In this document: positions 20,786 to 23,616 of the stretch, one piece after another
How the letters are laid out: each line of letters starts with the position of its first letter
How positions within the stretch are numbered: position 1 is the first letter of the stretch
Assembly: GCA_027371845.1 (NCBI GenBank)
Contig: DAHXLD010000008.1
Span: 1 to 35,790 of the forward strand
Direction of reading: 5' to 3'
DNA: 35,790 nucleotides
Origin: Candidatus Saccharimonadota bacterium
GTDB taxonomy: Bacteria > Patescibacteriota > Saccharimonadia > Saccharimonadales > UBA4665
Notes under the pieces: generated by a model
Seen by the model: only the letters and a program-made list of their open reading frames with translations
Databases searched by the model: none
Told to the model about the DNA's origin: nothing
Translations under genes and position numbers: made by a program

Positions 20786-21409
20786 TTATTTAATAGATAC
20801 GTATAGCCAGTTCCGTCTTATGTAGCGTGAAACACTTTGCAATAAGCCTTCCGGCATATCGTTATTAAGTAAAGCATCTCTAATGTTGCTAGAGCTTACG
20901 GCTGGGGCGTAGCTCTTTAGAATCTTAACTCTTTTGGTAGGCCATTCTTTTACCAGAGTTCTGATGGTCATTAAATCAATATCGTTTCGGGCGCCTATTA
21001 CTAGCTCTGACCTTTTAAACATCAATTCGATATCTGGCCAAGACGGAATATTCTCAACCTTGTCTGAGCCAAACAGGAATATAATCTTGGAATCAATAAA
21101 TTGTTTTTCAATTTTGGAAAGAGTACTTTTTACCTCAAGTCTTTTGTCGTCTAGTTCTAATATTTTCATTTTAGGATAAGGCTTGATAGCCTCTTTAAGC
21201 ATCGCAACCCTATGGCCAAAATGCTCCATGGCTACTTTATTTCTAGGGAATCTTTCTGGAAGAAAATAAAGCTCATCTAGTTTTGCCTTCTTAATGGCTG
21301 TTAGAGCAAACGTCATATGGCCAACATGGACTGGATCAAAAGTCCCGCTATAAATAGCAACTCTTTTAGGTTTTTTATTAATCTTAATAAATTTATTCGC
21401 TATATTCAT
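20786..21409 (-). CDS. nadD: Nicotinate-nucleotide adenylyltransferase
   Basis: VAIYSGTFDPVHVGHMTFALTAIKKAKLDELYFLPERFPRNK, SSSNIRDALL. Confidence 0.88.
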   Translation of the reverse strand: MNIANKFIKINKKPKRVAIYSGTFDPVHVGHMTFALTAIKKAKLDELYFLPERFPRNKVAMEHFGHRVAMLKEAIKPYPKMKILELDDKRLEVKSTLSKIEKQFIDSKIIFLFGSDKVENIPSWPDIELMFKRSELVIGARNDIDLMTIRTLVKEWPTKRVKILKSYAPAVSSSNIRDALLNNDMPEGLLQSVSRYIRRNWLYVSIK

Positions 21410-21417
21410 AAGCTTTA

Positions 21418-22980
21418 TTATAGGACCATTGCTGTATTTAAGCTTATTTTTTTAGGTTTTTTTATGTCTTTAGTAGGAGTTTTATTCACCATATTCTTGG
21501 GTTTTGTTATGGGACTAGTGTTGATTTCGGGTTTTTGGGGTTTTTTAGTCTTGATGTCAGTTTTTTTACAATTAGTGCAAGCTTTGTTAGCATGCATGTC
21601 ATAATGTACACTTTTTTTACCGCAATATGGGCATTTTCTAATTGTATCCATGAGTTTTTCTCCCTTAAGGCCTAAGCGAGATAACTCTTTATCTTTTTCG
21701 CTACCAGTGATTACACCAACGAGTCCACAGCTTCCGGCTCCACAAAAAGTAGTAAGCGGTAGGGTTTTGATTAAACTTTCAATTGAATTATCGTAAGAAG
21801 TTTTATCTTTAGTGATTTGATATTGAAAATTGATAACCTCTAGATCAATTGCTGTTTGAAGTCCAAAAATACGTTTGATTTCTCTAGGATTATGTTTAAA
21901 AGCCTGAAACGATCTTTCGGTTAAGAGCTTGATCAAATTCATTTCGCTTATTCTAGGATCATTGTTTTGCCTAGATTCATTTAAGAGAAACTCTGAGATT
22001 TCATCAGCTAAGACTCGATACTGTTGATCTTGGTCTAGAAATTGATTTATGGTCTGTGAGTAATCTAGGTCTGTGTCGTCTGCAGCTACCTCGCCCGTAA
22101 AAACTCTTTGATGGTGTTTTTGAGTTGCTAAATCATCTAATAACTCAACAAATTCAAAAAGGGATTCTGGTTCATTTGGCATAATAAAACTTTTTGCTCT
22201 TAGTTCTAGGCCGCTTAGATCTTGATATTTATCTTCACCACTAAGAAAACCTAGTGCATCGCGAACAACCTCAGCATCTATTAAGGTTCCGGGGAGAGCA
22301 AAATGATCACTATAGACTCCTTCTGGAGTAATCCGATCTCTTTGAATGACAAACTTTTTAATTTGCGGAACGTAGCCATTATATAAATCCTTTTCATCTT
22401 GAGTTCTTTGATACTTATCAACAATATAATCAGGACACTCTTTAATTCTCAATAAAGTAACGGTTGAGTTATTTTCTCGACATTTTTTAACAAGTTCAAT
22501 ATTTAGTTTATTGTCAACATAATCTAAGGCTCTTATTTCTACTTCTTCTGGCTCACAGAATGGACTTAAGCCGTTCTCAGATATCTCACTTAAAGATCTA
22601 GGACCAATAATAAGATCCTCTGATTCTTCGTCAAAGGATTGAAAAATAGTAGGAAAATATATAGGCGAATATTTATTTCTAACTTCTGCTACTGTTCTTA
22701 AGCTATCTAAGAATAATGCCTCTCTTAAATAAAAAGTGTCTTCAAATTCTTCTTGTTTAACTATTCGATCTGATACCGATAAAACATTAATCGGGAGTGG
22801 AGTATTGTTGGCTATGTTCGGGTCAGCATTAAAAGCCCGTTCTTGGTTTTGTAATAAAATCCGATTAGCTTCTTCAAGATAAAAAGAATGTACTATTTGA
22901 CCTTCAAAATAATTATCAAGGTCTGTTAGTTGATAAAGTGGTGTTTGATTTTCTAGAGAGTTTAGCTGCTCGGCTAACAT
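21418..22980 (-). CDS. Protein of unknown function (520 aa) with C-terminal zinc ribbon
   Basis: Long ORF; CxxC pairs in TFCGAGSCGLVGV and RKCPYCGKKSVHYDMHANKACTNCKKTD, followed by Lys/Pro-rich tail. Confidence 0.85.
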   Translation of the reverse strand: MLAEQLNSLENQTPLYQLTDLDNYFEGQIVHSFYLEEANRILLQNQERAFNADPNIANNTPLPINVLSVSDRIVKQEEFEDTFYLREALFLDSLRTVAEVRNKYSPIYFPTIFQSFDEESEDLIIGPRSLSEISENGLSPFCEPEEVEIRALDYVDNKLNIELVKKCRENNSTVTLLRIKECPDYIVDKYQRTQDEKDLYNGYVPQIKKFVIQRDRITPEGVYSDHFALPGTLIDAEVVRDALGFLSGEDKYQDLSGLELRAKSFIMPNEPESLFEFVELLDDLATQKHHQRVFTGEVAADDTDLDYSQTINQFLDQDQQYRVLADEISEFLLNESRQNNDPRISEMNLIKLLTERSFQAFKHNPREIKRIFGLQTAIDLEVINFQYQITKDKTSYDNSIESLIKTLPLTTFCGAGSCGLVGVITGSEKDKELSRLGLKGEKLMDTIRKCPYCGKKSVHYDMHANKACTNCKKTDIKTKKPQKPEINTSPITKPKNMVNKTPTKDIKKPKKISLNTAMVL

Positions 22981-22996
22981 GGGACCCTTCTTTTTA

Positions 22997-23075
22997 GGCA
23001 GCTGTATCGGACTTATCTAGATTAGAATTACCGTTGCGGCACAGTGAAGGACTTACACCCTCTTCCAGCTCTATT
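22997..23075 (-). ncRNA. Cobalamin riboswitch-like aptamer
   Basis: Minus strand GAGCTGGAAGAGGGTGTAAGTCCTTCACTGTGCCGCAACGGTAATTCTAATCTAGATAAGTCCGATACAGCTGCC: matches GGGAA..GGTG.AAxTCC..CxG..CCGCxACxGTAA and the B12 box AGTCCGAxxACxxGCC. Confidence 0.85.
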
Positions 23076-23142
23076 TATTAATGTACTAGGAAGTTTAGCA
23101 CTAAGAAAGTTTATTAGATATAGTATTTTTAACTATGGGGTT

Positions 23143-23616
23143 TCAAGTTTGTTTCTTTTTTAGATCGCTTAATCTGGGTATAAAACTTTGGGCAGCACCT
23201 TCTAGGCCCAAAACTCTTAATGACCCCACTAAGACATAAAGGTGATCAAGACTAGTTGTTCTGATTTCATCACCCAGACTCTCTATTTGCTCAAAGGCAT
23301 GTTCTATCTTTTCGACTAACCATTTTTCTTCGGAAGGAGCAACGTAGTTAGTAGAAATCTTTTGATAATCTGTTCCTTCAACTACTTCGAGCGAGCGAGC
23401 CGAACGATCCCTTTTCCTTAAATGTCCTCTTTTTAAGAGTGAATTAACGTGCAGGGCAACCGTTGCTAAGGAGTTATAGTTAAGGGCGTTCATTATTTCA
23501 CGATAACTAGGACTATAGCCATGTTCGGATATAAAAGATTTAATAAATTCTAAAGTTTCAGCTTGCTTTTTAGTGGGTCGAATGGCTTCTTTTTTCTGAC
23601 TATTCTCTTCCATCAT
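23143..23616 (-). CDS. LexA-type winged-helix DNA-binding protein lacking S24 peptidase domain
   Basis: PTKKQAETLEFIKSFISEHGYSPSYREIMNALNYNSLATVALHVNSLLKRGHLRKRDRSARSLEVVE; ends ~75 aa later with no autoprotease motifs. Confidence 0.8.
   Translation of the reverse strand: MMEENSQKKEAIRPTKKQAETLEFIKSFISEHGYSPSYREIMNALNYNSLATVALHVNSLLKRGHLRKRDRSARSLEVVEGTDYQKISTNYVAPSEEKWLVEKIEHAFEQIESLGDEIRTTSLDHLYVLVGSLRVLGLEGAAQSFIPRLSDLKKKQT

Follow-up and report, generated by a model that had tools for sequence, protein, structure and literature searches.

A compact cobalamin-type riboswitch that probably represses an undescribed zinc-ribbon protein family in Saccharibacteria

The locus and its leader RNA

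On the minus strand of a 35,790-nucleotide stretch of a Candidatus Saccharimonadota genome (assembly GCA_027371845.1, contig DAHXLD010000008.1, positions 1 to 35,790; hereafter the window) a cobalamin-type leader RNA stands directly in front of an open reading frame (ORF) for a protein of 520 amino acids (21418..22980), which is called ZnP here, and nadD (20786..21409) follows 8 bp after the ORF, as an earlier note made from the sequence alone had read it. The same note had proposed the cobalamin aptamer, and all of its sequence blocks are present: GGAAGAGGGTGTAAGTCC from 23066, CACTGTGCCGCAACGGTAA, and AAGTCCGATACAGCTGCC ending at 22997. The Rfam family RF00174 (Cobalamin) matches 23066-23004 with 24.1 bits (E 2.1e-4, in a search of 301 nt against 4227 families), and this is the single RF00174 match in the whole 530-kb assembly. 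Since the score lies under the gathering score of 31.5 bits, a curated Rfam threshold that stands for no structural feature, a default cmscan run lists nothing, so the check proposed in the note returns the expected family, but only below the cut-off. A held-out covariance model, R1, built from 35 aligned relatives with the window and its sister species excluded, scores 23072-22962 at 71.2 bits (E 1.9e-18) and aligns with the leader end to end. Judged by comparison of sequences, the match is far above chance and the window leader is a member of the cobalamin-type riboswitch RNAs.

The aptamer core occupies 23000..23072 on the minus strand, where the RF00174 and R1 matches and the covariation described below coincide, and it contains the four-helix junction P3-P6 of RF00174: helices P3 (23070-23066/23004-23000), P4 (23062-23058/23050-23046) and P6 (23033-23031/23010-23008), and P5 with its loop L5, UGCCG (23041-23037). 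The multi-helix P6 accessory arm, a trait of class I cobalamin riboswitches, is not present in the window; one short hairpin of 4 bp, P7 (23026-23023/23019-23016), stands in its place. The B12 box AAGTCCGATACAGCTGCC (22997..23014), near-invariant as AAGYCNGAYAC in the relatives, ends 16 nt upstream of the start codon (ATG at 22980). Between P3 and the start codon lies a likely Shine-Dalgarno sequence, AAGAAGGG (22985..22992), a position where the congeners carry AGAGAGGG and AAGGAAG. Directly after the ATG, and still inside the R1 match, the arms TTAGC and GCTAA enclose the loop CGAGCA in a hairpin, P13 (22962..22977), which at the same time forms codons 2-6 (LAEQL). The loop L13 can pair with L5 through CG and GCA, leaving one bulged A. 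The expression platform thus reaches into the coding region, past the interval considered in the earlier note.

Conservation and covariation

Among 93 genomes of the same GTDB family RF00174 matches 68, nearly always once per genome, and 36 of these exceed the cut-off; R1 finds the RNA in 83. In the alignment of 35 relatives 94.8% of the paired cells of P3, P4, P6, P7 and P13 are complementary against 78.4% in shuffles, and 177 two-sided changes were counted against 59, the shuffles leaving relatedness uncorrected; when the partners are slid, a control which corrects for it in part, pairing falls to 27-48%. Two-sided changes are present in P3, P4, P6 and P7, and the P13 stem covaries too. The covariation that had been named as a check on the proposal is therefore strong. 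The core, the B12 box and L5 are near-invariant in this alignment, and L5 and L13 are complementary in 34-35 of the 35 relatives at each position. In a larger set of 98 leaders the P13 stem again covaries, L13 is CGAGCA in 89, and its most variable position is that of the bulge. Long insertions in the P6 region that share AAAAAGAGCAGCCGGA were seen in two distant genera (L057 in G082, L042 in G092). Among the open-licence PMC papers searched, no report of cobalamin riboswitches in Saccharibacteria was found.

The RNA accompanies ZnP

It was clearly seen that the RNA and ZnP travel together. Of the 80 family genomes with a ZnP homologue, 78 carry the RNA immediately in front of it and in the same orientation, and in the other two the ZnP gene is cut at a contig end, so the homologue search that had been proposed came out in favour of the association. 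The order lexA-like gene, RNA, ZnP, nadD recurs in the family, and in a survey at the level of the class the RNA precedes ZnP homologues in most matches, often without nadD. In most of the RNA loci ZnP comes first, and it was never found away from the RNA. This pairing in nearly every relative points to an undescribed B12-linked function. In L165 (G160), L174 (G198) and L162 (G280) long acidic proteins without a ZnP match stand behind the RNA in place of ZnP.

Other genes behind the RNA, and B12 use

The same RNA precedes other genes related to B12 in relatives. In three genomes it is found in front of the class I ribonucleotide reductase (RNR) genes NrdA and NrdB (L067 in G024, L058 in G079, L163 in G305); G079 and G305, the latter from the class survey, carry the B12-dependent NrdJ in addition to the riboswitch-preceded NrdAB, which is also present in G024. 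Among the classical targets of cobalamin riboswitches is B12-independent NrdAB. Elsewhere in the class the RNA precedes DUF4430 and DUF6580 genes, and genes of DUF4430 with an alpha-toroid protein. Since NrdAB and genes that probably serve B12 uptake stand behind this RNA, its ligand is likely to be cobalamin, and the suggestion that the aptamer might sense something other than B12 has become unlikely.

Several observations accompany these loci. The RNA before NrdA and NrdB in L067, L058 and L163 is a second copy of the riboswitch. In L138 (G095), L158 (G111) and L213 (G022 C2) both the DUF4430 protein and the alpha-toroid protein behind the RNA are secreted, and that of L138 has an LPSTG-like C-terminal anchor; the pair recalls the two domains of transcobalamin, and resembles a split surface transcobalamin. 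The RNA of G036 has a CobA/BtuR-type gene just upstream.

The likely consumer of B12 is NrdJ, found in 83 of the 93 family genomes, in 81 of them above the cut-off. The adenosyltransferase CobA/BtuR is present in 86 of the 93, including the genome of the window (C5), and the PduO type in none. Class-wide, NrdJ occurs in 91 of 99 genomes with ZnP against 43 of 244 without it, an association uncorrected for phylogeny.

ZnP and nadD

ZnP was described in the earlier note as lacking a recognised B12 transport, synthesis or enzyme domain, and indeed no curated profile of such families matches it; searches of Pfam, NCBIfam, PHROGs and PADLOC gave no family, only weak chance or zinc-ribbon matches. 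Weak matches to HypA, Elf1 and eL43 were rejected as due to the generic C-terminal zinc ribbon alone. A role as the missing corrinoid adenosyltransferase was discarded on account of the CobA/BtuR distribution given above, and a phage or defence origin since neither PHROGs nor PADLOC supports it. AlphaFold models of two distant members, that of the window and a second one (predicted local distance difference test, pLDDT, 87.3 and 88.2; predicted template modelling score, pTM, 0.83 and 0.80), share the order of secondary-structure elements. In the window protein residues of about 1-405 form a helix-rich domain with a central beta sheet, and the zinc ribbon follows with CPYC (450-453) and CTNC (468-471); Glu99, Ser180, Cys413 and the zinc-ribbon cysteines are near-invariant in the family alignment A1. 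The Foldseek comparison that had been recommended gave no significant match in the PDB for either model (best E 0.07 and 0.26, template modelling score about 0.1), and none among viral models for the first; near-matches to PAS, Roadblock and flavin monooxygenases stayed below significance and were not used. As far as these models and comparisons reach, the fold is apparently new.

The family is hypervariable, with a median identity of 15.3% across 29 genomes, while the neighbours reach 47.7% (nadD), 51.4% (thioredoxin) and 60.0% (lexA-like gene) in the same set. Sorting by simple patterns, which leaves many members unclassified, indicated that zinc-ribbon types combine with different N-terminal types. 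About one fifth of the homologues end in LAA, VAA or similar (e.g. L033, L042, L049, L054, L055, L060), and these C-termini, resembling the ssrA tag, suggest regulated proteolysis.

The product of nadD, the downstream gene of a putative operon with ZnP, matches PF01467 (E 3.4e-15) and scores 111.8 bits against TIGR00482, whose cut-off is 112.45. The partnership of nadD proposed at first stands as a co-linearity in many genomes and not as an obligatory one, many other families having no nadD after the RNA.

The upstream region

Upstream, also on the minus strand, lies a lexA-like gene (23143..23616) for a protein with a LexA-type DNA-binding domain (PF01726, E 4.9e-15); it scores 52 bits against TIGR00498, below the cut-off of 111, and profile searches detected no peptidase domain. 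In most family genomes the same cluster is found upstream of the riboswitch; in the window the gene is a co-linear neighbour and probably not part of the riboswitch transcript. The promoter-like pair TTGAAA and TATATC with an 18-nt spacer, proposed earlier, is present in the window (23146-23141 and 23122-23117), yet TTGAAA is absent at that place in the relatives compared and was rejected as the -35 box of a shared promoter; what is conserved there instead is TACTATATCTAGYGT. The form in the window is TACTATATCTAATA (23112..23125), with a palindromic core CTAYATRTAG, at the same place in most leaders compared, and exact or one-mismatch copies of TACTATATCTAGYGT in ten relatives are almost confined to the riboswitch locus. 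It is a candidate operator or promoter part. A candidate extended -10 box, TGCTAAACT (23092..23100; TGCTACACT in relatives), predicted from the upstream regions, lies 25 nt from the start of this element, with the same spacing as in the relatives. The position of the near-palindromic element between a lexA-like regulator gene and the aptamer would allow a possible second control at the level of DNA.

Expression platform and proposed mechanism

In 63 of the 98 leaders, against 4% of shuffled segments, the stretch from P13 to the gene contains a terminator-like, GC-rich hairpin that carries a T-run. The pairing of P13 with this terminator's 5' arm has a mean energy of -13.0 kcal/mol, while shuffles give -6.1 (Wilcoxon p 9e-12). 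The sequences of most relatives show a transcription-attenuator layout, where P13 either kisses L5 or pairs with the terminator. The genus of the window (G000, G034, G035) lacks the terminator and has P13 within the coding sequence; the congeners have the stems TTAGC/GCTAA and ATAGC/GCTAG. The position of P13 at codons 2-6 suggests a translational OFF switch in this genus, in agreement with the control of translation initiation read earlier from the layout, which is seen in the window sequence and in two congeners. In L036, L038, L075 and L084 a second P13-like hairpin with CGAGC lies in the first ZnP codons besides the leader P13; it could be a possible evolutionary intermediate, and it would allow combined transcriptional and translational control.

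In the mechanism we propose, the compact riboswitch would turn ZnP off when cobalamin is plentiful. Once bound, cobalamin would hold the P3-P6 junction and the kissing loop of L5 and L13 in place, and this would lock the P13 hairpin beside the AUG, so that loading of the 30S subunit is blocked; without cobalamin P13 would be weak, and ZnP, probably nadD too, would be translated. In most relatives P13 would instead have two alternative partners, L5 in the kissing loop or the 5' arm of an intrinsic terminator. ZnP would thus be made under B12 scarcity, for uptake, handling or sparing of B12 for NrdJ. We infer the ligand, the OFF sign, the translational mechanism in the window genus and the role of ZnP from sequence, and consider it probable that this RNA is a B12 riboswitch switching ZnP off and that ZnP serves the B12 economy of NrdJ.

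The RNA shares with RF00174 (clan CL00101) the P3-P6 core, L5, the B12 box and P13/L13 with kissing-loop complementarity, and differs from it by the very short P6 accessory arm, by the many members below the cut-off and by a target from an undescribed family. The P13/terminator layout of the relatives, with a kissing loop that stabilises P13, is like that of the corrinoid riboswitch of Priestia (Bacillus) megaterium metE, a repressing switch in which this layout was established by mutation (PMC10653944); L5 is UGCCG here and not UCCCG, L13 has a bulged A, and the terminator is lost in the window genus. As in the translational switches env8HyCbl and E. coli btuB, P13/L13 would be coupled to ribosome access, and env8 also has a bulge in L13 of the kissing loop (PMC10653944), but P13 of the window is built from codons 2-6 and not from a ribosome-binding-site hairpin of the leader. 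In contrast to the B12-controlled class I RNR (NrdAB with NrdJ), the regulated gene in the window is ZnP.

Alternative explanations

Several points weigh against the proposed reading. The window leader stays under the RF00174 gathering cut-off (24.1 against 31.5 bits), and its single-sequence folding is not better than that of shuffles (z = +1.1), so folding was not used and the evidence is comparative. L5 and L13 are nearly invariant, hence the kissing loop is backed by complementarity and not by covariation, and the placement of P13 inside the ORF is supported by three congeners, not enough for covariation at that site. No NrdJ turned up in the window's own assembly, which is 66% complete, the class-wide association of NrdJ with ZnP carries the phylogenetic limit given above, and ZnP itself shows no feature pointing to B12.

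ZnP may alternatively be a fast-diversifying, host- or phage-facing interaction protein that is induced at B12 shortage without belonging to B12 metabolism. Its low median pairwise identity beside the 47.7-60% of the three neighbouring genes, the same zinc-ribbon types on different N-terminal types and the lack of a metabolic family match would fit such a protein, but neither a signal peptide nor a membrane segment was noticed in it, no phage or defence family matches it, and it is single copy at one locus; we hold this explanation to be unlikely. As to what the protein does, we lean slightly towards a family of new fold with swapped zinc modules, induced by B12 scarcity and always behind the riboswitch, which would be either an undescribed B12-handling step for NrdJ or a diversifying host-interaction factor.

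The sign of control is unreadable from the window alone, and one activating corrinoid riboswitch, of A. halodurans cobT, has been reported (PMC10653944), thus cobalamin might activate ZnP. In that activating switch P13 has sequence in common with the terminator, whereas the 63 terminator-bearing leaders have them as two distinct hairpins, with P13 pairing to the terminator's 5' arm, which is the repressing layout; repression by B12 is also what is expected for NrdAB and uptake genes, and an ON switch appears quite improbable. To the same low degree we credit the possibility that the riboswitch mainly serves other genes, ancestral B12-uptake genes or nadD, with ZnP as a passenger: in some genomes DUF4430-DUF6580 does come first after the RNA, and ZnP is second or missing, but this is opposed by the leading position of ZnP in most loci and its confinement to the RNA, and by several other Saccharibacteria families having ZnP behind the RNA without nadD or uptake genes. 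A drift of the aptamer to another compound, such as another corrinoid or a metabolite of the NAD pathway, could be argued from the many members below the cut-off, the short P6 accessory region and the co-linear nadD, and it is made very unlikely by the near-invariant core, B12 box and L5, by NrdAB and probable B12-uptake genes behind the same RNA, and by the lack of nadD there in many other families.

Significance

Saccharibacteria are tiny epibionts which rely on other bacteria for most of their nutrients, and B12 appears to gate the synthesis of DNA precursors in them through NrdJ. That a riboswitch stands before one orphan gene in almost every case indicates that this gene matters to the B12 economy, and it offers a direct route to its function. 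If the repression of ZnP by B12 is true, the cobalamin regulon would gain a protein family not described before, which may have a new fold, and the nutrient dependence of an epibiont would acquire a testable handle. Patescibacteria genetics lack inducible systems (PMC11665869), and the RNA would provide a natural B12-responsive control element for them.
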